From IMG/VR virus record IMGVR_UViG_3300042549_004369, positions 1 through 44,565 of that record: a stretch of 44,565 nt of DNA; one strand, 5' to 3'. A model generated the notes under the pieces. It ran no database searches. It saw only the letters and a program-made list of their open reading frames with translations, and was not told the DNA's origin. Made by a program: the position numbers and the translations under genes. Numbering within the stretch: position 1 is the first letter of the stretch; each line of letters begins with the position of its first letter. This document shows positions 19,562-44,565 of this stretch, in pieces. Source of the DNA: a virus.

Positions 19562-21484
19562 ATGGCCATTGGTATTTTAACTCCCTTACAAATGATTGCT
19601 GGTGCCACACTGAGCAATAACGGTGGCATTAAACTTGCCAACACCTGGACCAACAGTGTAAATTCATACACAGGTACAACATTACTCACACCTTTCTTTG
19701 CCGCAGTAGCTAATTCAGCTGCTGCTAATATCAGTGTTAACACACTGGCCAACATGTTTACATTTTGTTCGGCCACAGTTCCTGCCCTGGCTGACAATAC
19801 TCCTGCAGCCTATTTTAATTTGGGGATCAACATCTCTTCAGGATTCACTGGAGTGATTACTGCACAAGGCACAAAAGATCTTGGCAGCGGCAATGTCACG
19901 GTGTTTGCACAAGTATTTTCGGCAGCACAAGGATATGTGTCTGCCACAAATAATTATATCAATACCAGTATCAACAGCCAGACTTATCTAGGATCAACTT
20001 TTACCACAATGAACAGTTTGATCACTGGAAATCTAAGTGATGTGAACCTGGCCATGAGAGCATTTGGTACTGATCTAGCAGCATTGGGACAATTGATTGA
20101 TCTTGATAATCTTGGAAATTTTGGATCACCTGCTGCATTGTTACAACGGTTATCTTCATTGACCAATGTCACACCAGGTGTAAGCAATGCATTAATACAA
20201 GCAGGACTCAATCAGGCCAATATTGATGACATAGTGAATCCAAATGTCAATGTCAATGATAATTTGCAACGACTGGCATATCAGGGCATGTTGAATGTCA
20301 CAGGTACAGAATTGGAGCAGGTTTTGGTTGTGTTCGGGGTGTTAACTCCAAATATTAATACCATGGCTGACTTGTTGAATCCTGTTAAAATTTTCCCCAA
20401 CAGTTATCCAAGCCTTACAGTATCAACTTACAATCAAGATACATCAACTGTGCTTCGGGCCATTTATGATAACAATCAAGGTGCAGTAAATTCAAAACTA
20501 TTGATTTACTTGCCACGCTATGTGTTGATACTTGGTGGTAGCAATATGATCACATATCAACGATTGAGTTTGATCATACCCCCAGACCAAGCATTAGCTT
20601 GCAAAGCAATTCAAGTCAGTTTGCAGCAGATTAAAAATATCAACAACATGAGCCTAGCACAGTTGGCAACTGCATTTATTAACATGCAGACCACTCGAGA
20701 TCTTGATCTCATAAGTTCATTGACCACAGCAGTTCCGCCATCGGTAGCAGCATTTTATGCCAACACGTATGCAACTGGCACTGGCCCTGATGGAACTTTG
20801 GTCATAACTGATCTGTTGGGTGCAGCAGTTGGTGTACCGTTTACTAGTGATCTTACCAATGTTACTACTACTATCAACAGTATGACTTCGGCTGGTATCT
20901 TGATCACGTTAACTGGTACCTATGTGCAAATGCAAAACACAGTAAATGGTGTATATGATATGGGCAACACGGTAGTAATTCCGTCTGGGCCGGCAGCAGG
21001 CACGTATGGAAATGCTGATGCTGCGTTAAATGCATTGATCATTGTGGCGGCCAGCGAGGTTGCCGGAATTGAAAGTGCATACCCTGCACAAGCGTCGGTA
21101 TTAAACAGCAATTTTATTTCTATGGCTGCTAATCTCAACACAGAGATTAACAATCTTTCGTTGGCCAGTATAGACATAGCCAATTTGGATCCCAATGGCC
21201 GTGGACCGATTATGAGTTTTGTGCAGAATTTACCCGATTATGGAATTAATACAGAACAGAATGGTCCAGCGCAGTTTCTTGAATCCGTTGCTAATCTCAA
21301 CACACAAGGTGGACAGGCCATTGTGGCCTGCTTGAGAGAAGGTAAAAATGTATCTGTGTTAGATGGTGCTGGTGCCGGGCAAGACACAGTGATTCCTAGT
21401 ACACCTAGCGCAGTTCCTCCTCGTGCAATCTTGATTCCGAGCACATATTCTGAGGCAGAAGCAGCCAATTTAGTTGTAAAATAG
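19562..21484 (+). CDS. Large virion structural protein of T4-like marine phages
   Basis: 640 aa, low in Cys and Trp, rich in Asn, Ala, Thr and Leu, mostly helical in the first 450 residues (ATNNYINTSINSQTYLG; DLAALGQLIDLDNLG). The opening MAIGILTPLQMIAGA matches my memory of a large structural protein encoded beside tail genes in T4-like cyanophages. The position directly after the PAAR protein points to the baseplate or tail. It is unlikely to be an enzyme: no catalytic motif is seen. It ends 14 bases before the porin promoter's spacer. Confidence 0.65.
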   Translation: MAIGILTPLQMIAGATLSNNGGIKLANTWTNSVNSYTGTTLLTPFFAAVANSAAANISVNTLANMFTFCSATVPALADNTPAAYFNLGINISSGFTGVITAQGTKDLGSGNVTVFAQVFSAAQGYVSATNNYINTSINSQTYLGSTFTTMNSLITGNLSDVNLAMRAFGTDLAALGQLIDLDNLGNFGSPAALLQRLSSLTNVTPGVSNALIQAGLNQANIDDIVNPNVNVNDNLQRLAYQGMLNVTGTELEQVLVVFGVLTPNINTMADLLNPVKIFPNSYPSLTVSTYNQDTSTVLRAIYDNNQGAVNSKLLIYLPRYVLILGGSNMITYQRLSLIIPPDQALACKAIQVSLQQIKNINNMSLAQLATAFINMQTTRDLDLISSLTTAVPPSVAAFYANTYATGTGPDGTLVITDLLGAAVGVPFTSDLTNVTTTINSMTSAGILITLTGTYVQMQNTVNGVYDMGNTVVIPSGPAAGTYGNADAALNALIIVAASEVAGIESAYPAQASVLNSNFISMAANLNTEINNLSLASIDIANLDPNGRGPIMSFVQNLPDYGINTEQNGPAQFLESVANLNTQGGQAIVACLREGKNVSVLDGAGAGQDTVIPSTPSAVPPRAILIPSTYSEAEAANLVVK

Positions 21485-21502
21485 CAATTGTGATGCTATA
21501 GT
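21474..21502 (+). promoter_or_regulatory. Sigma70-type promoter of the porin gene
   Basis: TTGTAA (21474-21479), 17-base spacer, TATAGT (21497-21502). The -35 overlaps the last codons of the structural gene. A leader of roughly 50 bases with AAAAGGAAAA precedes the porin ATG at 21561. Confidence 0.7.
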
Positions 21503-21560
21503 AGCTAAGTAAGAGTGTGCCATTTGGTACATAACAACAACTTTTTAAAAGGAAAACTTC

Positions 21561-22460
21561 ATGAAGAAATATGCTTTACTACTGGCCCTGGCATTGGCCG
21601 CAGGTTTTGCTCAAGCACAAACCACCCCTCAAGTCAGCGTCTATGGCAAAGTGCGTGAGTATCAAGAATCTTATACTTTGGGTACAGCTAGCGCATTGAC
21701 ACGTTTGACCAATGATTCCAGTCGCCTGGGATTCAAAGCCTCAGCCGATGTTGGCAACGGTATCACTGCTAGTGCTGTGATCGAAACTGGTGTTGCATTG
21801 GACGCACCCAGCGCCACCACACTTGGTGATCGCGTTTCTGTGTTCAGTTTGAGCAACAGCTTGGGTTCCGTTGGTGTAGGCCGCGACAAGCACTCAGTGA
21901 CTCGTGTGTTGGATAACTATGATGCATTGGAAAATGCGTATGGTACATTCGCAACCACAATCCACAGCGCACAAGGTAGCCGTTTGCAAAACGCAGTATT
22001 TGTCAGCACAGCAACTGTGGCCGGATTCAAAGGTAACTACGTGATGGCCAATAGCGAAACCGCTGGTGTGACCAATGTACAAACTGCCAGCATTGATTAT
22101 GCAGCAGGCCCATTTGCTGCCACCTTGGCACGTTACGACAGCAGCACAAACAGCCAAAGCACTATCGTTGGTGCCAAGTACACCTTGGCTGCTACAGGTA
22201 CCACAGTGTTTGGAATGTATAGCGATGACACAGTGTCAGGTGTGAGTACCACAGGTAAGAGCGTGGGTGTTCGTCAAGCAGTTGGTCCACGTGTTACAGC
22301 GTTGGCCAGCTACGGCGAAACCAATGCTGGCGTAACTGCCAAGGCTGTTGGTGTGGCGTATTCAATGAGCAAGGCACTGACTGTGCATGGTCGTTGGAGT
22401 TCTACTGACGCTGCAACAGATGTCACACAATATGGCGTTGGTGTGGAATACAACTTCTAA
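21561..22460 (+). CDS. Outer-membrane porin, Gram-negative Porin_4-like
   Basis: 299 aa. Signal peptide MKKYALLLALALAAGFAQA, cleavage after A19. The mature part starts QVSVYGKV, shows RLTNDSSRLGFKASADVGNG and ASAVIETGV (the first strands of betaproteobacterial general porins), alternating amphipathic strands throughout, and ends YGVGVEYNF with the C-terminal Phe recognised by the BAM complex. Burkholderiales porins are usually about 330-390 aa, so loops are shortened here. It is a separate unit with its own sigma70-type promoter and terminator. Roles: extra uptake of small (perhaps anionic) solutes, or replacing the host receptor porin to block superinfection, as known for the phage PA-2 porin. 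Confidence 0.9.
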   Translation: MKKYALLLALALAAGFAQAQTTPQVSVYGKVREYQESYTLGTASALTRLTNDSSRLGFKASADVGNGITASAVIETGVALDAPSATTLGDRVSVFSLSNSLGSVGVGRDKHSVTRVLDNYDALENAYGTFATTIHSAQGSRLQNAVFVSTATVAGFKGNYVMANSETAGVTNVQTASIDYAAGPFAATLARYDSSTNSQSTIVGAKYTLAATGTTVFGMYSDDTVSGVSTTGKSVGVRQAVGPRVTALASYGETNAGVTAKAVGVAYSMSKALTVHGRWSSTDAATDVTQYGVGVEYNF

Positions 22461-22474
22461 ATTGCCAACTGTAG

Positions 22475-22495
22475 TTTGCGACAAAATGTCGCAAA
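22475..22495 (+). other. Perfect hairpin after the porin gene
   Basis: TTTGCGAC (22475-22482) pairs with GTCGCAAA (22488-22495), loop AAAAT. It lies 14 bases after the stop codon and before the terminator. It may stabilise the porin mRNA 3' end. Confidence 0.7.
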
Positions 22496-22503
22496 ATAAC
22501 CAC

Positions 22504-22531
22504 AAAAACCCTGCCCTGTGCAGGGTTTTTT
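22504..22531 (+). terminator. Rho-independent terminator of the porin gene
   Basis: CCCTGC (22509-22514) pairs with GCAGGG (22520-22525), loop CCTGT, flanked by an A run before and six T after, so A-T pairing can lengthen the stem. The region 22461-22617 holds only this, the preceding hairpin and the next promoter. Confidence 0.9.
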
Positions 22532-22558
22532 GTTGTAAAAATACCATAATTATTTTGG

Positions 22559-22587
22559 TTGACCAGAATTGCAAGATCGGCTATAAT
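22559..22587 (+). promoter_or_regulatory. Sigma70 promoter P1 of the early block
   Basis: TTGACC (22559-22564), 17 bases, TATAAT (22582-22587). The leader carries CCGGAG nine bases before the ATG at 22618. Confidence 0.9.
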
Positions 22588-22617
22588 ACATACATAAACA
22601 GCAACATACCGGAGCAC

Positions 22618-22809
22618 ATGATGGACCAGACACTTAAAGTAATCCCCAGCGTTGGCGAAGCAGGGTTTGACACTGAAGCTAGCCCGGGCAACGGACCATT
22701 TTATGTCAGGCTGTATGATGGGTCCTATGATGTCTGCGGCTTTGACACCATTGATGAAGCCTATGCAGAACTGTTAGATATCTCAACCGAAGTTGGTAAA
22801 ATCGGTTGA
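22618..22809 (+). CDS. Small early protein, unknown
   Basis: 63 aa starting MMDQTLKVIPSVGEAG. The longer open frame upstream runs through the porin end and its terminator and is not real; the start is set by the promoter P1 and the GGAG before 22618. Predicted beta-alpha layout (FYVRLYDGSYDVCGFDTIDEAYAELLDI), about the size of a small binding domain. A second strong promoter begins immediately at its stop. Early timing suggests host takeover, but no function is known. Confidence 0.7.
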   Translation: MMDQTLKVIPSVGEAGFDTEASPGNGPFYVRLYDGSYDVCGFDTIDEAYAELLDISTEVGKIG

Positions 22810-22834
22810 CCGGTATTGAGTTTTCGGTTATAAT
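22806..22834 (+). promoter_or_regulatory. Sigma70 promoter P2
   Basis: TTGACC (22806-22811), 17 bases, TATAAT (22829-22834). Its spacer differs from that of P4 (23639) at one base, showing duplication of a promoter cassette. The -35 overlaps the upstream stop codon. Confidence 0.9.
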
Positions 22835-22860
22835 ACATACATCGCAACAAGGAACACACT

Positions 22861-23190
22861 ATGATCGCACTAGACAACATTGAAAGCATCCATAACACCG
22901 CAACAGCCGCAGCCCGCAAGACTACTGAAGACTTTCTTGCCAAACACGGTGATCGCGATGCTTGCGGATTTGCTTGGGTCACGGTCTACGAAAAAGGATC
23001 CACCAAGTTGGGCCGTGCGCTGAAAGCCGTAGGCTTCAAGCCAGCATACGGTGGTGGCCTTCAACTATGGAACCCAAGTGGCAGCTGGACCCAATGCATC
23101 ACAGCCAAGGAAGAAGGTGCCCGCGCCTACGCTGATGTGCTACGCAAGTTCGGTATCGAGCAGGCCTACGCAGGAAGCCGAGTAGACTAA
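22861..23190 (+). CDS. Early protein, unknown
   Basis: 109 aa: N-terminal helix (IHNTATAAARKTTEDFLAKHG), a central DACGFAWVTVYEKGSTKLGRALKAVGF and GGGLQLWNPSG. No family recognised with confidence; proteins of this kind are seen in other large phages. It has its own strong promoter P2 and AAGGA before the ATG. Its codons (many GCC, CGC, AAG) are richer in G and C than the surrounding late genes, which may reflect selection for high early expression or a separate origin. Confidence 0.65.
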   Translation: MIALDNIESIHNTATAAARKTTEDFLAKHGDRDACGFAWVTVYEKGSTKLGRALKAVGFKPAYGGGLQLWNPSGSWTQCITAKEEGARAYADVLRKFGIEQAYAGSRVD

Positions 23191-23197
23191 GAATTGG

Positions 23198-23226
23198 TTG
23201 ACTGGTATTTCCCAAACTGCTATAAT
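23198..23226 (+). promoter_or_regulatory. Sigma70 promoter P3
   Basis: TTGACT (23198-23203), 17 bases, TATAAT (23221-23226), just after the stop at 23190. The next gene has CAGGAG before ATG 23260. Confidence 0.9.
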
Positions 23227-23259
23227 TAACATATAGACAGCAACACACAGGAGCACAAA

Positions 23260-23646
23260 ATGGGATACATGGATTGGAAAGCATCAGCAAAGATCGAAGA
23301 CATGGTTGGCAAGGTGTTCACTCGTGTGACGGGTGGAGTGGGCGACGGTGAGATGGTGTTCGAGAACGCAACCGAACGCTTCGTGTTCTTCCACTCACAG
23401 GATTGTTGCGAGAACGTGGACATCAACGACATTGCGGGTGACCTGCAGGACCTGTGTGGTGAGCCTTTGTGGATCGCTGTAGAAGTGTCTGGTGCTACCG
23501 AGCCAGACGAAGAGCACTACGAATCCTACACCTATACCTTCTACAAGTTCGCTACCCGCAAGGGCTATGTGGATGTTCGTTGGTTGGGAGAGTCAAATGG
23601 ATACTACTCCGAAGGTGTAAGCCTGGGACGCGAGCTGGTTGACTGA
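23260..23646 (+). CDS. Early protein, DUF7448-like
   Basis: 128 aa. The strings VFFHSQDCCENVDINDIAGD, then ESYTYTFYKFATRKGYVDVRW and GESNGYYSEGVS match my memory of a widespread phage/bacterial domain of unknown function (DUF7448). It binds neither a known cofactor nor nucleic acid as far as I know. It is probably a compact beta protein with a conserved Cys pair (DCC). It has its own promoter P3 and a GC-richer codon use like its neighbour, and the promoter P4 begins inside its last codons. Confidence 0.65.
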   Translation: MGYMDWKASAKIEDMVGKVFTRVTGGVGDGEMVFENATERFVFFHSQDCCENVDINDIAGDLQDLCGEPLWIAVEVSGATEPDEEHYESYTYTFYKFATRKGYVDVRWLGESNGYYSEGVSLGRELVD

Positions 23647-23667
23647 TATTGAGTTTTCGGTTATAAT
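23639..23667 (+). promoter_or_regulatory. Sigma70 promoter P4
   Basis: TTGACT (23639-23644), 17 bases, TATAAT (23662-23667). Near copy of P2: 16 of 17 spacer bases are identical. TTAGGAG precedes ATG 23696. Confidence 0.9.
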
Positions 23668-23695
23668 ACATTTTTAATTTAACTTAGGAGTTTTT

Positions 23696-24115: not shown

Positions 24116-24127
24116 TCAACGTCCACA

Positions 24128-24148: not shown

Positions 24149-24170
24149 GCCTTTACTATAAGGAATAGTC

Positions 24171-24524: not shown

Positions 24525-24525
24525 C

Positions 24526-24813: not shown

Positions 24814-24823
24814 GGAGAAACAC

Positions 24824-25656: not shown

Positions 25657-25659
25657 ATA

Positions 25660-29447: not shown

Positions 29448-29739
29448 AAATCCACGTGACCTAACCAACGAAGAAATTGAAGAATGCATTGACGGTAGCA
29501 GCGATGTCGGCATGATACGTGAAATTATCTCCATGGAAGATGTGTACAATGAAGATAGCACACACTTGCATGAAGAAAACTTTGCCACACGTTTTGCTTA
29601 TGCAATCGAAGGCTTTATTGATGCAGATCCAGAAACCGAAGCCTGGTCCGAAGCATGGGATAACAACTACGAATGGGGCCTAAGCATTGCTGAAAATATC
29701 AATGATGTGTTGACCGTAGATGTTGACAGCACCGATTGA
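29440..29739 (+). CDS. Very acidic small protein, unknown
   Basis: 99 aa with 27 Asp/Glu, four Arg and no Lys. Predicted helical with aromatic residues in the second half (EAWSEAWDNNYEWGLSIAENI). Such charge and size recall DNA-mimic inhibitors (phage Ocr-like) or adaptor proteins, though no sequence relation is seen. It overlaps the preceding gene by eight bases. The consensus promoter at 29723 lies inside its last codons. Confidence 0.6.
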   Translation: MLRNPRDLTNEEIEECIDGSSDVGMIREIISMEDVYNEDSTHLHEENFATRFAYAIEGFIDADPETEAWSEAWDNNYEWGLSIAENINDVLTVDVDSTD

Positions 29740-29751
29740 AACTGCTATAAT
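29723..29751 (+). promoter_or_regulatory. Full-consensus sigma70 promoter of the transporter operon
   Basis: TTGACA (29723-29728), 17 bases, TATAAT (29746-29751): no mismatch to the sigma70 consensus. Expected start is near 29758, about 186 bases before the next ATG. Confidence 0.9.
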
Positions 29752-29943: not shown

Positions 29944-30279
29944 ATGTCTATTGAAGTTGGGATCTCTGCGTCGAGCATGTCCGAATCACTCAATTCGCTT
30001 AAAGTAACGCCCTTGCCCATGCACCGTATTTTTGTGGAGATTGGCAGTACCGAGATTTGGTACAAGATCATTGCCGAAGCCAATCGTGAATTTGGTATTC
30101 GCGGCTGGAGCGGACAATCGGGTACCAAACGTCGGCTAGATCGTCAGAATCACATGTGGCCGTCTGCACTCAAAACCACCATACGTGTGTGGTTTGACGT
30201 GCCTGATGAAAAGTTTGCCACTTGGATTGCTATAAAGTATCCAGTAACTGTTCTAGCACCACCGGCAACCAAAATATGA
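29944..30279 (+). CDS. First gene of the transporter operon, unknown
   Basis: 111 aa. AAAGGA stands seven bases before ATG 29944; just ahead lies a start-stop pair (ATGTAA, 29938-29943). Sequence: MHRIFVEIGSTEIWYKIIAEANREFGIRGWSG, then a basic KRRLDRQNHMW and TTIRVWFDVPDEKFATWIAIKYP, suggesting a small alpha/beta domain. It overlaps potA by ATGA, so it is coupled to the transporter, but it is not a solute-binding protein (no signal peptide). A regulator or an unrelated passenger are both possible. Confidence 0.6.
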   Translation: MSIEVGISASSMSESLNSLKVTPLPMHRIFVEIGSTEIWYKIIAEANREFGIRGWSGQSGTKRRLDRQNHMWPSALKTTIRVWFDVPDEKFATWIAIKYPVTVLAPPATKI

Positions 30280-31280
30280 AACTATATGAATCTTTTGTAA
30301 AATTTGACCACGTTAACAAAAGCTATGATGGCAAAACTCTGGTGGTACAAGATCTATCTCTTGACGTTCGGCCAGGAGAATTTCTAACCTTGCTGGGCCC
30401 GTCAGGGTCGGGTAAAACCACTGCATTGATGATGCTGGCTGGATTTGAAAATCCCACCGCCGGTGAGATATATCTCAATGGTAATCCTATTGTACACATT
30501 GCGCCCGAGCATCGGAATATTGGCATGGTGTTTCAGAACTATGCCTTGTTTCCGCACATGACTGTGGCTGAGAATATAAGATTTCCATTAAAGGTACGTG
30601 GTATAGTAGGCAACACCGCTAATGATAAAATTACTGCTATATTGAGCAAGGTAGGACTAACAGGGTTTGAGAATCGTCGGCCATCACAACTATCTGGTGG
30701 ACAACAACAACGAGTGGCAGTGGCACGAGCATTGGTGTTTGATCCGCAATTGGTATTGATGGATGAACCATTGTCATCCCTGGACAAACAATTACGAGAA
30801 CAATTGCAATATGAGATCAAAAATCTACATAGAGCAACAGGTATCACGTTTGTGTATGTGACACATGATCAAACTGAAGCAATGTACATGTCAGATCGCG
30901 TGGCAGTATTTCATCAAGGACGTATACAGCAAATTGGCACACCATCTCAATTGTATGAATCCCCGGCCAATATGTTTGTGGCACAGTTCATTGGCGAAAA
31001 TAACATTATAAAATCTTTCAATAATCTACACAATGTTTGTGTTCGCCCTGAACGAGTTCAACTCGACCCGGTTGATGCAGTTGATATACTAGTCAACGGC
31101 ACTGTGCTCGATGTAACTTATCTAGGACGGTATATCCGCATACAGTTAGATTCATGTGGTCTTGACAATTTTACTGTGACCCTGGCAAATACTGGGCAAC
31201 TTTTAAATTTGCAAGTTGGAAGAATAGTCAAACTAGGATGGAATTTTGCTGATTGCCGCACATTCGCTCCAGCAGAATAA
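30276..31280 (+). CDS. potA: ABC transporter ATPase, PotA-like
   Basis: 334 aa; ATG 30276 overlaps the preceding TGA (ATGA). Complete ATPase: Walker A GPSGSGKTT (41-49), Q-loop Q87 in MVFQNYALFPHMTVAEN, signature LSGGQQQ (139-145), Walker B LVLMDEP (159-165), H-loop H197 in VTHDQTEAM, then a C-terminal TOBE-type domain (VRPERVQL, VLDVTYLGRYIRI). This is the CUT/polyamine (PotA/CysA/FbpC) group. It powers import by the two permeases encoded directly downstream. All catalytic residues are intact, so the gene is not decaying. Confidence 0.9.
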   Translation: MKLYESFVKFDHVNKSYDGKTLVVQDLSLDVRPGEFLTLLGPSGSGKTTALMMLAGFENPTAGEIYLNGNPIVHIAPEHRNIGMVFQNYALFPHMTVAENIRFPLKVRGIVGNTANDKITAILSKVGLTGFENRRPSQLSGGQQQRVAVARALVFDPQLVLMDEPLSSLDKQLREQLQYEIKNLHRATGITFVYVTHDQTEAMYMSDRVAVFHQGRIQQIGTPSQLYESPANMFVAQFIGENNIIKSFNNLHNVCVRPERVQLDPVDAVDILVNGTVLDVTYLGRYIRIQLDSCGLDNFTVTLANTGQLLNLQVGRIVKLGWNFADCRTFAPAE

Positions 31281-31284
31281 ATTT

Positions 31285-32472
31285 ATGAGTTTGACTCAAC
31301 ATACCCGTGCGTATGCACTAATTGCGCCATTGCTGCTTTTTGTTGTTGTGAGCTTTATCCTTCCGCTTGGAATGATACTGGTCAACAGCATTTATGATCC
31401 TGTGATACCCAATGGATTACCTCGTACTGTATCCGCACTTGAAACATGGGATGGTGCCCCGACTCAAGTTCCTCCTGAGCATGTGTATGCTGCGTTGGCA
31501 CAGGATCTCAAACAAGCAGTTGAACAACAAAAAATTGGTTCAATTGCCAATCGATTAAACATTGAAGAACCTGGGTTACGCACCATCCTTACTAGGACTG
31601 CAACACAACTCGATTATCAAATTACAGGCCCATGGGCACCTGCATTTGAAGCTGTTAATCCTGCATGGGCTCGCCCAGAAATTTGGGGTACAATAAGAAA
31701 TCTTTCATCATCTACCCATTTGTTGTTTTTCTTGTCTGCATTGGATTTACATCAATTGCCCGACGGGACTGTGGCAAGGAAACCTGAAGATCAACGTATC
31801 TATATCAAGATCTATCTACGCACCTTGGGAGTAGCAGCAACTGTAACTGCAATATGTATGTTGTTGGGATTTCCACTGGCGTATATGTTAGCGCACCTTA
31901 AAGAAAAAACAGCTAACATACTATTAATTTTGGTGTTGCTACCATTGTGGACGTCGCTATTGGTACGTACTACAATTTGGATGGTAATGCTGCAAAAAGA
32001 AGGAATAGTAAATTGGCTGTTACAACGTTTGGACATTATCTCTAGCCCAATGCAGTTGATATTTAATCAAAGTGGAGTTATAATTGCAATGACGTATATT
32101 TTATTGCCTTTTATGATTTTACCTATGTATTCAGCGATGCGGCAGATTCCTGCACAGTATGTGAATGCAGCACGATCATTAGGAGCCAGTTCAGCAACTG
32201 CGTTTTTTCGTGTGTACTTGCCACAATGCATGACTGGTGTTGGTGCCGGTATGCTATTGGTATTTGTTCTTTCTTTAGGATACTATATAACACCTGATCT
32301 GATAGGCGGGTCCACAGAACAAATGATCAGTTATTTTATAGCAGACAACATAGGCCGGTCCCTAAATTGGGGGCTAGCATCAGCCCTGTCTGTTATTTTA
32401 CTTGCTGCTGTGTTACCGTTGTATGTGGTATATGATCGTGTGATTAGTAACAATAGATTTAAAATTCAATAA
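31285..32472 (+). CDS. potB: ABC transporter permease, PotB-like with large periplasmic insert
   Basis: 395 aa from ATG 31285, four bases after potA. First membrane helix at ~11-33, then a ~140-residue periplasmic part (LPRTVSALETWDG, EHVYAALAQDL, PGLRTIL), then the permease core from ~178 with at least five helices. The EAA loop (YVNAARSLGASSATAFF, about 292-308) contacts the ATPase. E. coli PotB is ~280 aa; the large insert is typical of a proteobacterial polyamine/opine-type subgroup. The substrate is not proven: putrescine or spermidine, an opine or 2-aminoethylphosphonate are the main options. Confidence 0.85.
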   Translation: MSLTQHTRAYALIAPLLLFVVVSFILPLGMILVNSIYDPVIPNGLPRTVSALETWDGAPTQVPPEHVYAALAQDLKQAVEQQKIGSIANRLNIEEPGLRTILTRTATQLDYQITGPWAPAFEAVNPAWARPEIWGTIRNLSSSTHLLFFLSALDLHQLPDGTVARKPEDQRIYIKIYLRTLGVAATVTAICMLLGFPLAYMLAHLKEKTANILLILVLLPLWTSLLVRTTIWMVMLQKEGIVNWLLQRLDIISSPMQLIFNQSGVIIAMTYILLPFMILPMYSAMRQIPAQYVNAARSLGASSATAFFRVYLPQCMTGVGAGMLLVFVLSLGYYITPDLIGGSTEQMISYFIADNIGRSLNWGLASALSVILLAAVLPLYVVYDRVISNNRFKIQ

Positions 32473-32480: not shown

Positions 32481-33296
32481 ATGCAAATTGTTGGAAAAAT
32501 TTTACTTTATTTGATTGCTGCTGCGGTGTTGTTATTCTTGATTGCACCAATCCTACTAGTAATGCCATTGGCATTTACTCAATCGTCATATTTCCAGTTT
32601 CCAATTGAAGCATACAGTCTACGCTGGTTTGAAGAATTATTTAGTAGTCCAATTTGGTTACATGCCATATACAACAGCATTGTGATTGCATTGATGTCTA
32701 CATTACTAGCAGTATCTTTGGGCACATTGGCTGCAATGGGACTAAATCATAATGACTTGCCGGGCAAACGTTTTGTCATGGCAGTTTTAATCTCACCAAT
32801 GATTGTGCCAGTTGTGGTGCTGGCAGTTGGATCTTACTTTTTTTATTCTAAATTGGGCATTGCTAACAATTTATTGAGTATTGTGTTGATTCATGCAGTG
32901 TTAGGCATGCCATTTGTGGTGATCACCGTAACTGCTGCACTGGCTGGATTTGACATGAAACAAGTGTGGGCTGCACGTGGGTTAGGGGCATCTGCCTGGC
33001 AGGCTTTTTGTTATGTAATGTTTCCGGCAATTTGGCCAGGTGTGGTATCTGGTGCTCTATTTGCATTTGTTATGTCCTTTGACGAAGTAATTGCAGTATT
33101 GTTTTTGGGCGGGCCTGAGCAAACTACATTACCAAGACAGATGTGGGAAGGACTTCGTGAGCAACTGTCGCCGACTATTCTTTCAGCTGCGTTCGTGATA
33201 ATTTCTATAACCACAATTATATTGCTGCTAGAAACACTACGCCATCACAGAACTGTAAAGTACACAGTCACTGTGCCATTATTACCTGGTAAATAA
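32481..33296 (+). CDS. potC: ABC transporter permease, PotC-like
   Basis: 271 aa, standard PotC length. Six hydrophobic helices; the EAA loop is QVWAARGLGASAWQAF (161-176). SFDEVIAVLFLGG near the end matches the conserved PotC sequence (SLDDFVIAFFVSG-like). It completes the membrane part with PotB. No periplasmic binding protein (PotD type) follows: the next gene is a phage membrane protein behind a late promoter. The binding protein may be encoded elsewhere in the phage or supplied by the host. Confidence 0.9.
   Translation: MQIVGKILLYLIAAAVLLFLIAPILLVMPLAFTQSSYFQFPIEAYSLRWFEELFSSPIWLHAIYNSIVIALMSTLLAVSLGTLAAMGLNHNDLPGKRFVMAVLISPMIVPVVVLAVGSYFFYSKLGIANNLLSIVLIHAVLGMPFVVITVTAALAGFDMKQVWAARGLGASAWQAFCYVMFPAIWPGVVSGALFAFVMSFDEVIAVLFLGGPEQTTLPRQMWEGLREQLSPTILSAAFVIISITTIILLLETLRHHRTVKYTVTVPLLPGK
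33288..33295 (+). promoter_or_regulatory. T4-late-type promoter octamer GGTAAATA over the potC stop codon
   Basis: Overlaps the last codons of potC and lies five bases before the ATG at 33301, the same close spacing as at 7984, 8398, 10383 and 19069. It marks the switch from the early transporter operon to a late gene. Confidence 0.55.
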
Positions 33297-33300: not shown

Positions 33301-34857
33301 ATGTTTCTTAGTCTCATTACTTTAGCTGTGGCATTGAGCCTTAGCGTTATTGCTGCATATTACAGCATTGCTGGCCTGGCTGCTATATTTGCAGCGGCTG
33401 TGGTACCCATCATGATCATGGGATCTGTGCTGGAATTGGCCAAAGTTGTGGTCACATTGTGGCTGCATGAATACTGGTCACGCTGCCGCTGGTTGATGAA
33501 ATTATATCTAGTACCGGCTGTGGGCATGTTGATGTTGATAACGTCAATGGGTATCTTTGGATTCCTATCAAAAGCACACAGCGATCAAAGTCTAGTATCA
33601 GGTGACGTGATAGCAAAGATTGCTGTGTATGATGAAAAAATCAAGACTGAAAAGGAAAACATAGATGTTAGCCGTAAATCCCTTAAACAAATGGATGAAG
33701 CTGTGGACCAAGTTATGGGTCGTAGCTCAGACGAAAAAGGTGCAGACAAAGCTGTGGCTGTGCGCCGTGGCCAACAAAAGGAGCGTCAGCGCCTGCTTGC
33801 GGAAATTTCTGAAAGCCAAACACGCATTTCAGCACTTAACGAACAACGTGCCCCAATTGCCGCCGAAGTTCGCAAGGTTGAAGCAGAAGTAGGCCCAATC
33901 AAGTACATTGCAGCATTAATCTATGGAGACAATCCGGAGATTAATGTGTTAGAACGTTCTGTACGTTGGGTGATTATACTGCTGGTATGTGTGTTTGATC
34001 CACTGGCCATCATGATGCTGCTGTCTGCAACCGAAAGTCTCAAGTGGGCTCGTAAACCGCCAATGAAGGAAATATCCGAAGATGGGCACAAGACACCATG
34101 GTCTGAACCTGTAGTAGAAGAATATGTTAAATGGCCTGGGGGGTGTGGGCCTACTGAAACAGTAGCAGAAAAAGAATTTGATATCAATGATCATCCGTAC
34201 TTGTTTACACCGCCAGGGAATCGTACTCCGCCAGGCGTAGAACCTGCCCCAATACAAGTATATCGGCCCAGCGATCCAGAACTTGATCCTTGCTATAAAT
34301 GTGGTACACCATTGATGAATGCTCCGGGCATTGGTCCTTTTTGTCCAAATCGAGAATGTGATGTATCCGATGGACCATTCTTGCATGAACAGGAACCTAT
34401 CAAAATCAAATATATTTCACCAACTGCTCATCTCGAAAATGAGCATGACGAAGATGAAAGTGTTGAGATCAAAAATGCCAAATCACAATGGAAAGCTGAC
34501 AATCCTGGTGATACATTAAAACGCCATAGACGTTTGCTGGAAGTGGGAGTGATAGATCAACTGCCGTGGATAACGTATCTGGACAAAGCGCCCGAATCAG
34601 GGTTTGGCAACGTGCTTCCTGAACACGGAAACAAGGGCGACACATTTATGTCCACCATTGGCATTCCACATCGACTGTACAAACACAATGGATTTGAATG
34701 GATCAGAATTGACAATACTCAACAAGATAACTATACTTACGACACAGCTTATATTGATCACTTGATCAGTCAAATTGATCAAGGATTGTATGATCCTGAT
34801 CAACTGAGTGACAGCGAACGTGAACAGATTGAACAACGTATAACACAACCCAAATGA
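33301..34857 (+). CDS. Phage membrane protein with coiled coil and Cys knuckles
   Basis: 518 aa. Three hydrophobic helices in residues 1-90 ([39 protein letters not shown]), a long coiled coil at ~105-200 ([20 protein letters not shown]), another membrane helix near 222-243 and a polar C-terminal half with two cysteine knuckles (CYKCGTP; CPNREC) and repeated acidic patches. The [12 protein letters not shown] segment is one I recall from T4-like marine phage proteins of unknown function. It may anchor a complex to the inner membrane; a lysis or exclusion role is possible. Overlaps clpX by ATGA. Confidence 0.6.
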
Positions 34858-38375: not shown

Positions 38376-39659
38376 TCTATGCTGTCTGAGTTGTCGAATT
38401 GATCTTTTCATATACTCAGATTTAAATTCTGAACTTAGTTTATTTCCAGCCCGCCAGATTTTTCTATACCGCCAAAACGTATCACCTAGATTTTCGTAAC
38501 AAAAATTTACTGCTTGATTAAGATTATGCTGTAACTCTTGGCTAACTTGATTCATGAATTCATCACTGAAAAAATGTTGACGGTTATACTCCGAAATACG
38601 ATTTATCTCTTGCCAGTCGGCAGCAGTTAAGTTTTGTATTTGTTGCATGGTCTTGATAATTTTTTCCATTCTCTTTATACAATCAGTTTCACCATCGTAG
38701 CTTTCATCAAATACTGAACCAAAAGTTTGAAATCCATACCGTCGCAGATAAGCCAATGCCCCCGGGCCTGCGGCCAACACAAACGGATGACCACATGCAA
38801 TGGGTCGTAGTATTTTTTCTGTGAGATGAATCTTGCTAGTATCAAACACTGTTTCTAACACCACACTGATAGCTGTGGTTGTGATATCAACTGTGTCGTA
38901 ATCTGCACTGGCGCTGGCAGCAGTGTTATTATCCGGGATGGCCAATAATCGGTGAGCATCTACTGCAAATTGAGGATTTTGTACTTGATAATCACAAAGA
39001 TGCACACCTTGGTTATTAACATGCTGTGTGCTGATATTGCATTGATTCAATAGATCGGCATTCAACAACAATTCCATGAATTTTAATCTATATTCTCTAT
39101 TGGGTGTCCAATCTCGGCAGTAAACTAAAAATGTTTTTTCTATTTGTTTGTGTTTGAGTCTAACATCATGTTGGGCAAATCTATACCAATCTCTGGCTAT
39201 CATGGCATGACTCCAGTAGTACGCCGGGCAGAATCCATTTTGAGAAAATTGCTCAACGTCCTCACTGTTCCATTCACTATGCAATAATATAGTCCAATCT
39301 TTGGCATCATAAAATGCATTGAGCCATGTGGGTTTAAATTTGGGATATCGATCAAGTCGAGAATAAAATCTTAACCAGTCAGATGTTAATACTGCTAAGT
39401 TTTTGTCATTTTGATTATAGTGTTTGATCAACTTAACTAGTCGATCCATATTATGATCAAATTGGTATTCGGAAAAATTCAAAGGTTCCTGATCATAACA
39501 TATCATGTCAGGAATCATTGCACTGTTATTATCGTAATTTTTAAAAATATTAAGGTCAAAAATATCTTTGCTGCCATGTGGACGGAATACATAAAGTATC
39601 ACTGGACGTTGTGCTAGGCCTTCTACCCAGTGATACAGATGATCTAAAGGAATATTCAT
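38331..39659 (-). CDS. Glycosyltransferase-like protein (paralogue C of three)
   Basis: 442 aa from the minus ATG at 39659; the open frame continues upstream but only as the antisense of the dehydrogenase gene, so that part is rejected. N-terminal half: ILYVFRPHGSKD, MICYDQEPLN, WTILLHSEWNSEDV, then LVYCRDWTPNREYRL. C-terminal string shared with the genes at 2668 and 28350: SVVLETVFDTSKIHLTEKIL, HPFVLAAG, LRRYGFQTFG, DESYD, NRQHFF. It is the longest of the three. The next gene on the opposite strand is a UDP-glucose dehydrogenase, which supports a sugar-transfer role by inference. Confidence 0.55.
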   Translation of the reverse strand: MNIPLDHLYHWVEGLAQRPVILYVFRPHGSKDIFDLNIFKNYDNNSAMIPDMICYDQEPLNFSEYQFDHNMDRLVKLIKHYNQNDKNLAVLTSDWLRFYSRLDRYPKFKPTWLNAFYDAKDWTILLHSEWNSEDVEQFSQNGFCPAYYWSHAMIARDWYRFAQHDVRLKHKQIEKTFLVYCRDWTPNREYRLKFMELLLNADLLNQCNISTQHVNNQGVHLCDYQVQNPQFAVDAHRLLAIPDNNTAASASADYDTVDITTTAISVVLETVFDTSKIHLTEKILRPIACGHPFVLAAGPGALAYLRRYGFQTFGSVFDESYDGETDCIKRMEKIIKTMQQIQNLTAADWQEINRISEYNRQHFFSDEFMNQVSQELQHNLNQAVNFCYENLGDTFWRYRKIWRAGNKLSSEFKSEYMKRSIRQLRQHRLSRSQNNSSPVIGQ

Positions 39660-40904
39660 ATGAAAAAAATTGGTTTTATTGGTATTGGGAAATTGGGACT
39701 GGATTGTGCCGAAGTCATGGCCGAGAAGCATGAAGTTAGAGGCTATGATATTTACCCACGTACCAGTGACTCGGTAAAAGTATGTGACATTAACGAGTTG
39801 GTTAACGAAAGCGAATGGATCTTCATTGCTGTACCTACTCCGCATGCAGAAGGATACGATGGTTCTGTACCTAGCAGCCACATGGAACCTAGAGATTTTG
39901 GGCACGATGCAGTGATCGACGCTATTCACAAAATCAATCAGCATGCCCGTGGTCCTAAGAAAGTGGTATTGATCAGCACAGTATTGCCTGGCACCACCCG
40001 CAGCAAGTTTATTACACTGTTGGATCCGGTGCATCAGTTCTTGTATAACCCATATCTCATTGCCATGGGATCAGTTAAATGGGACATGGTCAATCCTGAA
40101 ATGATAATGATTGGAACTGAAGACGGCAGTTTAACTGGTGTTGCGTCTGAACTCAAAGTATTATATGACACAGTGATGCAGAACAATCCACGTTACGAAA
40201 TTGGTACGTGGGATGAATGCGAAGCTATTAAAATCTTCTACAACACATTTATTTCGGCCAAAGTAGGACTAGTAAACATGGTGCAAGACTTTGCTATGAA
40301 GATCGGGCACATCAATGTCGATGTTGTAACAGATGCATTGGCCCGCAGTACCATGCGTATCATGGGTCCAAAATACATGACAGCGGGAATGGGAGATGCA
40401 GGTGCTTGCCATCCGCGTGACAACATTGCACTACGCTGGTTGGCACAAGAATACGAAATTGGCTACGACTTATTTGATACTGTGATGCATGCTCGGGAAA
40501 TACAAGCAGAAAACTTGGCAAAGTTCCTAATAGGTGAAAGTCAAGTCAATAACAACTTACCTATTGTTATTCATGGTAAAGCATACAAACCTGATGTGGC
40601 ATACTGTATTGGTAGCTATTCAACCTTGGTTGGGCATTATGTTGAGAAACACGGACACAAAGTAGTATATGTTGATCCATTGGCAGATGATCCAACCGAT
40701 GTAGTAGACCACATTGATGGTGCTGCAATATTCTTGTGGGCACACAACCGTAAAATCACATACGAATATACCGGTGATCAAGCTGATACACAACCTTATT
40801 GCAAAATACATATAGGCAGTGTTATTGTGGATCCTTGGCGCAAACTGTCACAGATCATGGATGGTATTGAAGTGGTCCATTATGGAAACACCCGTACAAA
40901 ATAA
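39660..40904 (+). CDS. ugd: UDP-glucose/GDP-mannose 6-dehydrogenase-like protein
   Basis: 414 aa. NAD-binding GFIGIGKLG at the N-terminus, AVPTP in the first domain, K191 in ECEAIKIFYNTFISAK, the catalytic Cys C250 in GACHPRDNIAL, and GKAYKPDVAY in the C-terminal domain. The family oxidises a UDP- or GDP-sugar to the uronic acid. The Cys motif is GACHPRD rather than the usual GxCFPKD, so substrate choice may differ. AAAGGA (39645-39650) lies nine bases before the ATG, within the opposing gene: the two start codons abut as CATATG. Confidence 0.85.
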   Translation: MKKIGFIGIGKLGLDCAEVMAEKHEVRGYDIYPRTSDSVKVCDINELVNESEWIFIAVPTPHAEGYDGSVPSSHMEPRDFGHDAVIDAIHKINQHARGPKKVVLISTVLPGTTRSKFITLLDPVHQFLYNPYLIAMGSVKWDMVNPEMIMIGTEDGSLTGVASELKVLYDTVMQNNPRYEIGTWDECEAIKIFYNTFISAKVGLVNMVQDFAMKIGHINVDVVTDALARSTMRIMGPKYMTAGMGDAGACHPRDNIALRWLAQEYEIGYDLFDTVMHAREIQAENLAKFLIGESQVNNNLPIVIHGKAYKPDVAYCIGSYSTLVGHYVEKHGHKVVYVDPLADDPTDVVDHIDGAAIFLWAHNRKITYEYTGDQADTQPYCKIHIGSVIVDPWRKLSQIMDGIEVVHYGNTRTK

Positions 40905-41403
40905 TGCCTGGGCCCGAGGGCATGTAAACCCTTGGTGGGGTCTACAGCATAGAGACCTTGGGTATATCAACGAACCATTTAATGATCGTGTGTCATTGAA
41001 CAAATGGCGTGATTTGGGTTATACCCAAAGCAGATTCACTGGCGATATGTATGATATGCGTAATGCTGCGCCAGACTGGGTTGACCAATTTCAAATGATA
41101 TTTCCGTTTGAACACTTTGCCTGGAGTTTTTACCGTATGCCGCCAGGATCTGTATTGCCTGCACACAGTGACACATACGATAGATTCAAATTGATACACG
41201 GTCTAGAATCCACACACTCTGTAGTACGCACTATTGTGTTTCTTGAAGATTGGGCTAGCGGTCACTATTTAGAAATGAATAGTCAACCAGTTACCAATTG
41301 GCGTGCAGGAGACTGGGTAAGCTGGCGCGATGATTTTGTGCATCTAGCGGCCAACATAGGACAAACTGATAGATATACGTTGCAACTTACCGGAACAGTA
41401 TGA
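40882..41403 (+). CDS. 2OG-Fe(II) oxygenase-like protein
   Basis: 173 aa; ATG 40882 starts 23 bases before the dehydrogenase stop. An iron-binding triad is visible: H95 and D97 in LPAHSDTYDR and H154 in DDFVHLAANIG, with R164 (TDRYTLQLTG) suited to bind 2-oxoglutarate. The core HYLEMNSQPVTNWRAGDWVSW is typical of the double-stranded beta-helix fold. Many T4-like marine phages carry such oxygenases; hydroxylation of a protein, nucleotide or sugar is possible. Overlaps the next gene by ATGA. Confidence 0.75.
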   Translation: METPVQNNAWARGHVNPWWGLQHRDLGYINEPFNDRVSLNKWRDLGYTQSRFTGDMYDMRNAAPDWVDQFQMIFPFEHFAWSFYRMPPGSVLPAHSDTYDRFKLIHGLESTHSVVRTIVFLEDWASGHYLEMNSQPVTNWRAGDWVSWRDDFVHLAANIGQTDRYTLQLTGTV

Positions 41404-42317
41404 AGATACACAGTTTTAATGAATGGGATCCACTGCGGTCCGTGGTAGTGGGGCGTGCTGATCATGCCAATTGGCCTACAAAAGATCCTGTGTTCCGTTC
41501 AGAAAGTGAACGCACACTGTGGAAAGAAACTCCACTACCGTCGGGCCCTGTGCCCGACTGGATCATCCAGGAAGCCAATCAAGACCTTGATCAACTGGTT
41601 GGCGTTCTTAGATCATTAAATGTAGAAGTATTCCGCCCTAATGATCTTGATTTTCAAGAGCATGACGGCATGTACAACTATTGTCCTAGAGACCGATTGT
41701 TGGTGTACGGGGATACCATTGTAAATCCTGCCATGATGTATCCTTGCAGAGACATGGAAATTGAATGTTACAAAGACATTGCAGATGCTGCTGCCAACTA
41801 TGTATTCATGCCTAGACATGAAGGCATGATACTGGATGCTGCCAACATAGCACGACTCAATGACAAATGGATCTTTTTAGAATCCGCATCAGGCAATCGT
41901 GCTGCATATGACTGGTTATGCAAGCAGTTTCCCACTGTGGATATTGAACTAGTAAACTTTTATGCCGGTGTACATATCGACTCAACCATAGTACCATTGC
42001 GTGAAGGTCTGGTATTGGTCAACAACAGCAGAGTCACTCCGGAAAACTTACCTCGTGTGTTAAAAGACTGGGACGTTATCTATTGTAATCATGTGGAGGA
42101 ACAAGAGTTTTATCAGTATCCATATGCAAGTAAATGGATAGCATTGAATATGCTGGTGGTAAATCCACACACAGTGATTGTGGATAAAAATCAACCCATG
42201 TTGATTGATTTCTTGGAAAAAAATAAATTCACAGTGGTACCCATGCAACTGCGACACAGCAGAACACTAGGTGGTGGATTCCATTGTGTTACTCTAGACC
42301 TGCATAGAGAGCCATGA
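41400..42317 (+). CDS. Amidinotransferase-like protein (glycine amidinotransferase family)
   Basis: 305 aa. NEWDPLRSVVVGRAD at the N-terminus, ILDAANI (D146), YAGVHIDSTIVPL (H192) and GGGFHCVTLDL (C296): the Asp-His-Cys triad of the amidinotransferase/deiminase fold, here with the FDAADF- and MHIDATF-like segments of glycine amidinotransferase. It could move an amidino group from arginine to an amine acceptor, or act as an arginine deiminase-like hydrolase. Compared with the ~390-aa animal enzyme it is short. Coupled to both neighbours by overlaps. Confidence 0.75.
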   Translation: MKIHSFNEWDPLRSVVVGRADHANWPTKDPVFRSESERTLWKETPLPSGPVPDWIIQEANQDLDQLVGVLRSLNVEVFRPNDLDFQEHDGMYNYCPRDRLLVYGDTIVNPAMMYPCRDMEIECYKDIADAAANYVFMPRHEGMILDAANIARLNDKWIFLESASGNRAAYDWLCKQFPTVDIELVNFYAGVHIDSTIVPLREGLVLVNNSRVTPENLPRVLKDWDVIYCNHVEEQEFYQYPYASKWIALNMLVVNPHTVIVDKNQPMLIDFLEKNKFTVVPMQLRHSRTLGGGFHCVTLDLHREP

Positions 42318-42859: not shown

Positions 42860-42861
42860 TT

Positions 42862-43884
42862 ATGCATCCTCGATTTGGTTTCTGCTGCAAATGGCTCAAT
42901 AACCCTGACGAAACTGGTGGAATGAAAGTCAACGCTGTTGACCGTGATATCAACGGTCGAAGTACCACAATGCGTTGGTTGCGTGAACACAAGGACGAAG
43001 CAGTACAGCGTCAGTGGGATATCATGAATCACAATGCTCGTGCAGCATTAATGATGGTCGAGCGTGTGGGTGCAATGGTCCCTGAACGTCGTATGGTTCG
43101 CCTGGGCAGTGAAATGCTACAAGGCTACACTGAACCCAGCTGGATTTCTTGGTGGCAACAGGCCGATGTGCAAGCGCATTGCGAAAAGATCTTTGCCCCT
43201 GTAGGTGAAGCTGCTCGTCGACTTGGAGTACGGCTCAGTTTCCACCCTGGACAGTTCTGTGTGCTAGCATCAGAAGCTGACGAAATTGTAGAACGCAGCA
43301 TCTTGGAATTTGAATATCATGCTGACATGGCTCGATGGATGGGTTATGGTGCATCATGGCACGATCATGGATTTAAGATCAATGTACATTTGTCGGGCAA
43401 AGGCGGCCCGTCAAAGTTCCTGCGCACTCTAGGTCGACTTACACCAGAAGCCAGGAATCTAATCGCTATTGAAAATGATGAGATGACAAATGGTATCGAC
43501 GTTACTTTACTTGTGGCTGAGCATTGCGCTCTTACGCTGGATATCCACCACCACTGGATCAACACCGGAGAATACATCACGCCTGCTGACCCTCGCTCGC
43601 GTCGCGTTTTGGAGTCTTGGCGTGGTACTCGTCCTGCTTTGCACTATAGTGTTAGTCGTGAAGACGTTTTGGTTGATCACAATCCCAATACTCGGCCCGA
43701 CCTTGAGCAACTCCTTGCAGCTGGATACCGCAAGCAAAAGCTGCGAGCTCATAGCGACTTCATGTGGAATCATGCTGTGACTGACTGGGCTGTGACCTTT
43801 GCTGAGGAGTGGGACATGCAGGTAGAAGCTAAAGGCAAAAACTTGGCCACTGATCAACTGCACCAACATTGGCTGAGTCTGTAA
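42862..43884 (+). CDS. uvsE: UV damage endonuclease, UvdE/UvsE-like
   Basis: 340 aa. A TIM-barrel repair nuclease: RFGFCCKW at the start, RLSFHPGQFCVLAS (metal-binding His), ILEFEYHADMARWMG, FKINVHLSGKGG, LIAIENDEM (Glu), TLDIHHHWINTG (His cluster) and RAHSDFMWN (His/Asp). These correspond to the three-metal site of Thermus UVDE. The enzyme nicks DNA 5' to UV photoproducts, useful for a phage in sunlit water. A candidate Pho box begins within its last codon. Confidence 0.9.
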   Translation: MHPRFGFCCKWLNNPDETGGMKVNAVDRDINGRSTTMRWLREHKDEAVQRQWDIMNHNARAALMMVERVGAMVPERRMVRLGSEMLQGYTEPSWISWWQQADVQAHCEKIFAPVGEAARRLGVRLSFHPGQFCVLASEADEIVERSILEFEYHADMARWMGYGASWHDHGFKINVHLSGKGGPSKFLRTLGRLTPEARNLIAIENDEMTNGIDVTLLVAEHCALTLDIHHHWINTGEYITPADPRSRRVLESWRGTRPALHYSVSREDVLVDHNPNTRPDLEQLLAAGYRKQKLRAHSDFMWNHAVTDWAVTFAEEWDMQVEAKGKNLATDQLHQHWLSL

Positions 43885-43896
43885 CATAATTGTAAT
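43879..43896 (+). promoter_or_regulatory. Candidate Pho box upstream of pstS
   Basis: Two 7-base direct units, CTGTAAC and TTGTAAT, separated by ATAA; each matches 5 of 7 bases of the PhoB unit CTGTCAT with the usual four-base AT spacer. A -10-like TAAATA begins 11 bases after it, the spacing expected of a PhoB-activated promoter. The first unit contains the uvsE stop codon. Confidence 0.5.
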
Positions 43897-43905
43897 ATTT
43901 GAGTG

Positions 43906-43913
43906 AGTAAATA
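43906..43913 (+). promoter_or_regulatory. Late-type octamer AGTAAATA / -10 region of pstS
   Basis: Could serve as the -10 of a Pho-box promoter or as a late-type promoter; it lies 26 bases before the GTG start of pstS, which has AAGGAG (43928-43933). Confidence 0.45.
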
Positions 43914-43939
43914 ACTGTATCACTAACAAGGAGATCACA

Positions 43940-44565
43940 GTGAAAAAACTCATTACGGTATTACTCTCAGTTGTTGCATTTTGCGCAACAGCACAGGAAA
44001 TCACAGGAGCCGGAGCAACATTTCCGGCTCCCCTCTATTCAAAGTGGGCTAGCGAATACAACAAATCGACCAACATTAAAATCAATTATCAATCAGTAGG
44101 ATCGGGTGCAGGCATCAAACAAATTGAAGCCAAGACCGTAACATTTGGTGCAAGTGATATGCCACTCACAGATGAGAAACTAGCAGCATCGGGATTGTTT
44201 CAATTCCCAACAGTGATAGGTGGAGTTGTTCCAGTTGTTAATGTTAAAGGTATCGAGCCAGGTCAGATGAAATTGTCAGGGCCTGTACTTGCAGATATCT
44301 TCTTAGGTAAAATTACCAAGTGGGATCACGCTGCTATCAAAGCATTGAATCCTACTCTAGCATTGCCAAGTCAAGATATCACAGTTGTTCGCCGTGCAGA
44401 TGGGTCAGGAACTACATTTATCTGGACTAACTATCTAAGCAAAGTAAGCAAAGAGTTTAAAGAAACTATCGGAGAAGGCACTGCGGTTAATTGGAAAACG
44501 GGTGCAGGCGGCAAAGGCAATGAAGGCGTTTCTGCTATGGTTAGACAACTTCCAGGCTCGTTGGG
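43940..44565 (+). CDS. pstS: PstS, periplasmic phosphate-binding protein (3' end outside window)
   Basis: 208 codons to the window end, about two thirds of the protein. GTG start with AAGGAG six bases before it. Signal peptide MKKLITVLLSVVAFCATA. Phosphate-site segments: GAGATFPAPLYSKW, QSVGSGAGIKQI, FGASDMPLT, VVRRADGSGTTFIW and GGKGNEGVSA, all close to the PstS consensus. It delivers phosphate to the host PstCAB importer. PstS is a known phage-borne gene in T4-like cyanophages. The start lies behind a candidate Pho box. Confidence 0.95.
   Translation, partial: MKKLITVLLSVVAFCATAQEITGAGATFPAPLYSKWASEYNKSTNIKINYQSVGSGAGIKQIEAKTVTFGASDMPLTDEKLAASGLFQFPTVIGGVVPVVNVKGIEPGQMKLSGPVLADIFLGKITKWDHAAIKALNPTLALPSQDITVVRRADGSGTTFIWTNYLSKVSKEFKETIGEGTAVNWKTGAGGKGNEGVSAMVRQLPGSL

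Follow-up and report, generated by a model that had tools for sequence, protein, structure and literature searches.

Separately acquired genes for a porin, a phosphate-binding protein and an ABC importer in a large freshwater phage

The best-known nutrient genes of phages encode single binding proteins or enzymes, and the PstS protein of cyanophages provides an analogy for raised phosphate capture. The window analysed here, the whole 44,565 bases of IMG/VR virus record IMGVR_UViG_3300042549_004369, encodes a porin, the ATPase and two permeases of an ATP-binding cassette (ABC) importer and the N-terminal 208 residues of PstS, surrounded by phage genes for a primase, a DnaB-type helicase, NrdA/NrdB, an exonuclease and a DNA ligase. 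For oxygen-minimum-zone viruses, the available text of PMC8115048 describes a porin gene adjoining that of an inner-membrane transporter, in the order glnK-amtB-ompL. The window likewise pairs an outer-membrane porin with a putative inner-membrane nitrogen transporter; however, ompL and amtB are adjacent and of Bacteroidetes origin, whereas the two modules of the window lie ~8 kb apart and belong to different families. Polyamine enzymes of viruses are treated in PMC9992855, from the main text of which the word 'transport' is absent, and the main text of a freshwater phage survey (PMC6802176) mentions no porin, pstS or transporter. PHROGs already contains phage ATPases and permeases that share their superfamilies with those of the window, as the general families phrog_293 ('ABC transporter'; matched by the ATPase at 7e-92) and phrog_1577 (matched by the permeases at 2e-56 and 9e-50). 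Furthermore, 29 GenBank phage records match the first permease and 45 the second, all with less than 60 % identity and each representing either a phage gene or host DNA. Among the rows listed (29 and 15, respectively) most are unannotated, while two Escherichia phage records contain an annotated spermidine/putrescine permease with ~30 % identity. Given the viral glnK-amtB-ompL genes, the PHROGs families and these annotated permeases, the complete novelty proposed in the initial annotation cannot be upheld. Nevertheless, neither a similar phage importer nor a phage genome combining porin, PstS and importer was found in the literature searched, which left most subscription journals outside, had no search pairing creatine with phages and included the available text of PMC11366302, PMC10130141 and PMC8594841.

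The uptake genes of the window are real and phage-borne, and make up three modules that were separately acquired and are parallel rather than one system. A second IMG/VR record, IMGVR_UViG_3300042868_005641 (G001; 77,874 bases), from the same sample as the window or a different one, matches it with 99.67–99.97 % identity along its whole length. A phage genome with uptake parts for the outer membrane, periplasm and inner membrane, as claimed in the initial annotation, is borne out, with each part showing a signature of purifying selection. The porin occurs in 59 viral records, most of them fragments, of which 26 were recovered in a search with a single porin and 58 in a subsequent search with an alignment of nine phage porins (33 of them new). 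The modules co-occur only in part: PstS is encoded in 14/59 porin records (9/27 in one set, the 27 including G002, which is not a porin record, and 5/33 in the other), while the importer permease domain (PF00528) occurs in 1/59, namely G001, and in G002 outside the porin set. This unequal distribution, together with a Pho box at PstS only, does not support a coordinated import system spanning the whole envelope. The phage is a large freshwater phage, probably of Burkholderiales, and the donor clade of the importer suggests that its host probably belongs to the planktonic Comamonadaceae. The major capsid protein gp23, a T4-like hallmark, was found in 4/21 records, three of which perhaps represent one phage and one of which contains a partial protein. 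It was not found in G001, G006 (157 kb), G012 (154 kb) or G037 (262 kb), the completeness of these records not being established.

The importer is encoded on the plus strand by an ATPase gene (PotA-like, 334 amino acids; 30276..31280), with the domains PF00005 and PF08402, and two permease genes. The first permease (PotB-like, 395 amino acids; 31285..32472) contains a long loop after its first helix and PF00528 at residues 208–399 of a longer frame, while the second (PotC-like, 271 amino acids; 32481..33296) also contains PF00528, its junction having been read by eye. All domains (ABC_tran and TOBE_2, and BPD_transp_1 twice) exceed their cut-off values. The ATPase motifs, which we take to be Walker A, signature, Walker B and H-loop, appear intact in the alignment when read by eye, and in combination with two BPD_transp_1 permeases they place the proteins among the type I ABC importers. 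The intact functional motifs claimed previously can thus be affirmed for the ATPase motifs; however, 29 residues of its TOBE region are missing relative to the hosts and the phage locus L003 of G002, and the PstS of the window is partial. The deletion lies in a regulatory region and might release the ATPase from feedback control or impair it.

Comparison with bacterial genomes showed the importer proteins to be 67–72 % identical to those of freshwater Comamonadaceae (69–71 % for the ATPase; 72 % for the first permease, in its case against host locus L042), and 42–58 % identical to alphaproteobacterial and L119 sequences. Among the best 80 of 509 relatives in the species-genome scan, with gene neighbourhoods read in 23 of the 80 loci and in L003, freshwater Comamonadaceae are nearest (72 % at most), followed mostly by Rhodobacteraceae at 44–48 %. 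Across 250 genomes of the family, the centre genome, which was chosen for holding the clade, gave 70 % and the next full-length proteins 42–47 %. In the gene order of the Comamonadaceae operon, regulator – creatinase – A – D – B – C, the ATPase (A) and permeases (B and C) accompany a binding protein (D). Creatinase is present in 12/12 clade loci that reach upstream, the remaining five of 17 contigs starting inside the operon. The bacterial enzyme matches PDB creatinase 1chm at 9e-181, and the neighbouring regulator is nearest to the GbdR model, below its cut-off (278.5 vs 480). In a PotB tree comprising every sixth of 63 non-betaproteobacterial loci and hits of more than 350 columns, with L056, L060 and L109 dropped, the window groups with 100/98 support beside 16 rows of the creatinase clade, 15 of them bacterial (two being the same gene) and one the phage locus L003. 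Similarly, a tree of A, B and C, for which the 30/36 rows with all three genes were kept, separates the creatinase-linked clade, including the window, from the other sampled clades (100/100). The 63 further loci, nearly all alphaproteobacterial, contain creatinase within the flank in 20 cases (8 upstream, 12 downstream), while none was found in 20 loci of a more distant, ~45 % identical clade of the same family. Creatinase is not adjacent to the phage importer itself, and 0/9 IMG/VR pattern matches encode a relative of it, the query being one that finds close relatives only.

The window copy and the Comamonadaceae importer (L042–L056, L060, L109) thus share an orthologous ATPase and both permeases, the order of A before B-C and the long loop in the first permease. 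The phage copy differs in lacking a binding protein and the 29 TOBE residues, in its phage-like codon composition and in being flanked by phage genes. With PotABCD of Escherichia coli, which transports spermidine and putrescine, it has in common the importer type and domain layout; unlike that system, its proteins score below the curated cut-offs, there is no PotD and its relatives stand in a creatinase context. We infer a creatine-like compound as the best candidate for the substrate. An amidinotransferase (window 41400–42317) is akin to StrB1 and L-arginine:glycine amidinotransferase (PDB 1bwd, 1e-60) and keeps the stretches around what are presumably the catalytic Cys and His; the enzyme that initiates creatine synthesis is a member of this family. 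It was rejected as a specific partner of a creatine importer because 11 of the 12/23 records carrying it have no PF00528 match. The 23 records used here, and the 23 used for the SBP_bac_8 comparison below, were picked mainly by length.

As judged from sequence, the importer is an insertion into a phage operon. The genes flanking the cassette, one encoding 111 amino acids on the left (29944..30279, plus strand) and one a 518-amino acid membrane/coiled-coil protein on the right (33301..34857, plus strand), are conserved in related phages. In 14/15 loci with both genes they lie 1–2 bp apart (five of the 14 gave nearly identical figures and may be one phage), with the sole exception of G001, where, as in the window, ~3.0 kb separate them. 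The last codons of the second permease, compared by eye, coincide with the former end of the 111-amino acid gene. Upstream of the latter is a sigma-70 promoter-like site (29723..29751, plus strand) with 12/12 consensus matches and TG before the second hexamer. Since similar sites occur in L009, L013, L015 and L029, and a weaker one in L008, all five of which are importer-free, the cassette must have landed behind a pre-existing phage promoter. Of the strong host-type promoters claimed for porin and importer, that of the porin has only 9/12 matches, while the consensus site stands upstream of the gene that precedes the importer. The GC content at third codon positions (GC3) of the importer genes is 0.34–0.35 in the window, against 0.36–0.46 for four other window genes, 0.51–0.57 for the G002 importer and 0.71–0.79 for host L042. 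Against L042, the proportion of nonsynonymous differences (pN) is 0.19–0.21 and of synonymous differences (pS) 0.81–0.85, giving a pN/pS of ~0.25. The cassette has thus probably remained functional through a long residence in phages. It retains A-B-C without D, A ending at 31280 and B starting at 31285. Searches of the window and G001 yielded no match to PotD and no D-like protein, and SBP_bac_8 was found neither in G001 nor in the 19 further porin records covered.

An importer of the same clade occurs in another freshwater phage, G002 (IMGVR_UViG_3300027971_002725; locus L003), which encodes a phage DNA polymerase and exonuclease and has no other DNA match to the window. It differs in having its own binding protein and the gene order D-B-C-A, and is more recent on the basis of GC3 and of the 80–87 % identity of its A, B and C to Comamonadaceae proteins. 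Its D is only 60–61 % identical to the latter, and 92–95 % identical to the D of two related phages, L234 and L235. The DNA directly after D in L234 and L235 corresponds to that after A in G002, and A, B and C were found neither in the 8.8-kb record of L234 nor in the whole 104-kb record of L235. Addition of B-C-A behind a resident D in G002 is therefore the parsimonious reading of these sequences, although B-C-A may instead have been lost in L234 and L235. The phage D proteins, which form a phage-specific clade (L003 8875–9939, L234 4154–5218, L235 5001–6062), are under strong purifying selection, with a ratio of nonsynonymous to synonymous substitution rates (dN/dS) of 0.04–0.06. Their ligand may differ from that of the host D, as several otherwise conserved positions are changed, for example SWGG to GPGG near the N-terminus. 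The PotB tree separates the window and L003, with a single clade not rejected (p 0.136), while the tree of A, B and C joins them weakly (79/87) with a long window branch. The differing gene order and presence of D argue for two captures, but prove nothing. L003 also encodes a TctC-type solute-binding protein (15670–16608) and an SPFH/Band 7 protein (7790–8647).

The porin (21561..22460, plus strand) is a general porin of 299 amino acids, with a PF13609 (Porin_4) score of 69.1 bits against a cut-off of 27, and a signal peptide and C-terminal F recognised by eye. It is preceded by a promoter-like site, TTGTAA-17-TATAGT (21474..21502, plus strand), and many of the relatives shown have, as judged by eye, sigma-70-like sites at the corresponding position despite differing sequence. 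Its AlphaFold model (mean predicted local distance difference test (pLDDT) score of 70) comprises a barrel of 16–17 strands, a count that is uncertain at this pLDDT, with a helical loop 3. The curated score, signal peptide and barrel with loop 3 all identify a general porin, for which channel formation is predicted. Among the Foldseek matches listed, the solved structure nearest to it is Omp32, an anion-selective porin from Comamonas acidovorans (Z 26, 2.5 Å, 269 aligned of 330). The fold is shared with Omp32; however, identity is ~22 % and the phage porin is ~50 residues shorter (269 aligned of ~279 mature residues, against 330), and its loops are thus probably trimmed. Porins in five bacterial loci are likewise longer, with 337–351 amino acids. 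The same 640-amino acid gene lies directly upstream of the porin in 19/26 records of the first search, preceded by NrdB in 18/19. All bacterial relatives found for the phage clade are distant: of 399 genomes from Burkholderiales, the order to which a Rhodoferax genome belongs, five matched the porin profile at 1e-20 or better, with a partial match as the strongest (2e-23), and the 11 genomes holding the nearest relatives of the importer gave a single weak match (2e-6). As it is widespread in the phage group and its bacterial matches are only distant, the porin seems to be a long-established phage clade, and on these data the family looks old and long resident in this phage group. It is under purifying selection, with dN/dS values of 0.09–0.21 in 11 of 12 hand-picked pairs. 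GenBank phage records contain neither a porin match nor a near DNA match. BFVD includes entries for uncultured Caudovirales phages under the name OmpC porin, so that databases already cover phage porins in general; the old, widespread family is hardly described in the literature searched. Just past the porin, four sigma-70-like sites with 11/12 matches each precede small genes (window 22559–23667), which are perhaps an early gene region.

PstS starts with GTG (43940..44563, plus strand) and is truncated by the contig end, with the complete gene of 331 amino acids present in G001. Its matches to PF12849 (PBP_like_2; 113 bits against a cut-off of 27) and phrog_5385 (phage phosphate transporter subunit; 6e-52) identify a phosphate-binding protein, and over the first 208 residues dN/dS is 0.06–0.10. 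A Pho-box-like direct repeat 43 nt before pstS (43879..43896, plus strand) matches 11/14 positions, with 9/400 mononucleotide shuffles as good. Five pstS upstream regions, those of the window and L032 being identical in sequence, and seven porin ones were compared with such shuffles. The sites before pstS in L020 and L031 match 13/14 positions (0/400 shuffles), and that in L030 11/14 (5/400). Pho-box control of PstS is thus predicted by way of L020 and L031, the site in the window being weaker. In a scan of the whole window the best site, which lies elsewhere than at pstS, scores 11.7 and thus stays below the top maximum among shuffles (12.0), so that only the test of pstS upstream regions with relatives is informative. 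None of the seven porin upstream regions has a Pho box above shuffles, which argues against common Pho control of porin and PstS. The two genes are direct neighbours in five records (G017, G018, G021, G023 and G700), the first three of which look like one phage. As in cyanophages, a phosphate-binding protein is accompanied by a Pho box, and the only BPD_transp_1 permeases in the 77.9 kb are the two of the importer; unlike cyanophage PstS, that of the window belongs probably to a Burkholderiales phage and shares its genome with a porin and importer. A UvdE-type UV damage endonuclease is encoded beside pstS (window 42862–43884), scoring above the Pfam cut-off and below the NCBIfam equivalog cut-off.

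A model in which the importer cassette boosts creatine-like nitrogen influx through the binding protein of the host, while the porin has a general role and PstS serves phosphate uptake, has in our estimation an even chance of being correct. The porin would keep or change outer-membrane permeability while host envelope synthesis declines, and PstS under a PhoB-type promoter would, by analogy with cyanophages, raise phosphate capture in a P-starved host. The permease/ATPase cassette, which sits in a phage operon downstream of a strong promoter of sigma-70 type, would have been taken, without the binding protein, from the creatinase-linked operon of a freshwater Comamonadaceae strain or near relative. 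The extra copies may accept the periplasmic binding protein of the host and increase the uptake of creatine, or of another small nitrogen compound like it, which host creatinase and sarcosine enzymes would convert to usable nitrogen and carbon. More tentatively, freshwater phages may assemble ABC importers from separable parts, with the engine only in the window and G001, the binding protein only in L234 and L235, and both in G002, and draw creatine into infected cells. Creatine is proposed as the nutrient because the importers of both phage lineages, though these differ, belong to the creatinase-linked clade. An engine without receptor, and a receptor with and without engine, would allow the uptake-limiting part of an ABC importer to be tested, and if the substrate is creatine-like, phage replication would be linked to animal-derived nitrogen.

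Several observations weigh against this model. The 12 creatinase loci are closely related among themselves, their adjacency is genomic context only, and creatinase is absent from the flank covered in 43/63 of the more distant loci. The importer was found in one phage lineage of this group only, the TOBE deletion could impair the ATPase, and the phage genome is incomplete, so that a binding protein could sit outside the 77.9 kb. One porin pair (L015) has a dN/dS of 0.43. The best PDB match of the host binding protein is 8jv1 (3e-66), named as spermidine/putrescine-binding, and a further match, 4eq7 (4e-45), is titled polyamine-binding, while matches to a gamma-aminobutyric acid sensor and to mannopine and agropine binders make further substrates possible. 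These two named polyamine binders would suit a true PotABC-type importer, as named in the initial annotation, providing spermidine for translation and for the packaging of DNA, and the polyamine enzymes that viruses encode, as described in the available text of PMC9992855, fit such a role. For all three proteins the best NCBIfam matches are polyamine models, and TIGR01187 is only narrowly missed (335.5 vs 355.6 bits). However, every polyamine cut-off is missed, the remainder widely (PotA 344.5/482, PotB 173.1/348 and PotC 142.3/326 bits; for PotF, with a cut-off of 636, host and phage D proteins score 26 and 30), and the putrescine binder 7xjm matches the host protein at 5e-6 only. With the creatinase context of its relatives, a polyamine importer appears improbable, and PotABC was rejected as a name in favour of the creatinase-linked clade. 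That the importer is transient cargo without benefit, heading for decay, is consistent with its restriction to one lineage, the PotA deletion and the absent D gene, but is still less probable, given three open frames over 3 kb, synonymous sites near saturation, a pN/pS of ~0.25 and a fully shifted codon composition.

Its occurrence in only 1/59 porin records might also point to an assembly chimera of phage and bacterial DNA, which the initial annotation had itself considered. This is barely credible, since G001 matches the window over its full length, with no differences in the importer and identical sequence through both cassette junctions. Furthermore, the edge of the cassette runs into codons of the 111-amino acid phage gene, and the GC3 of the importer is phage-like rather than host-like. 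For the porin, a function unrelated to nutrients can be envisaged, in which a short-looped phage porin replaces the host porins used as receptors and thereby blocks superinfection, with the porin of the lambdoid phage PA-2 as a precedent. In favour of this, the barrel is kept in a protein shorter than Omp32 and the porins of the five bacterial loci, and in 45/59 porin records, many of them short fragments, PF00528 and PF12849 are both without a match. However, the location of the porin directly beside pstS in five records favours uptake, and the papers among the matches listed do not name PA-2. We thus consider superinfection blocking unlikely, though a serious alternative.

The phage also encodes a near-complete Clp set, comprising ClpX (window 34854–36056), an HSP20 chaperone (36382–36828) and a ClpS adaptor (36884–37192), with two ClpP-like proteases in G001 (L039 13717–14289 and 17006–17590). 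Three diverged proteins (window 2668–3741, 28350–29447 and 38331–40034) share their match positions in related loci and, in addition, match several places in a different phage record, G708.

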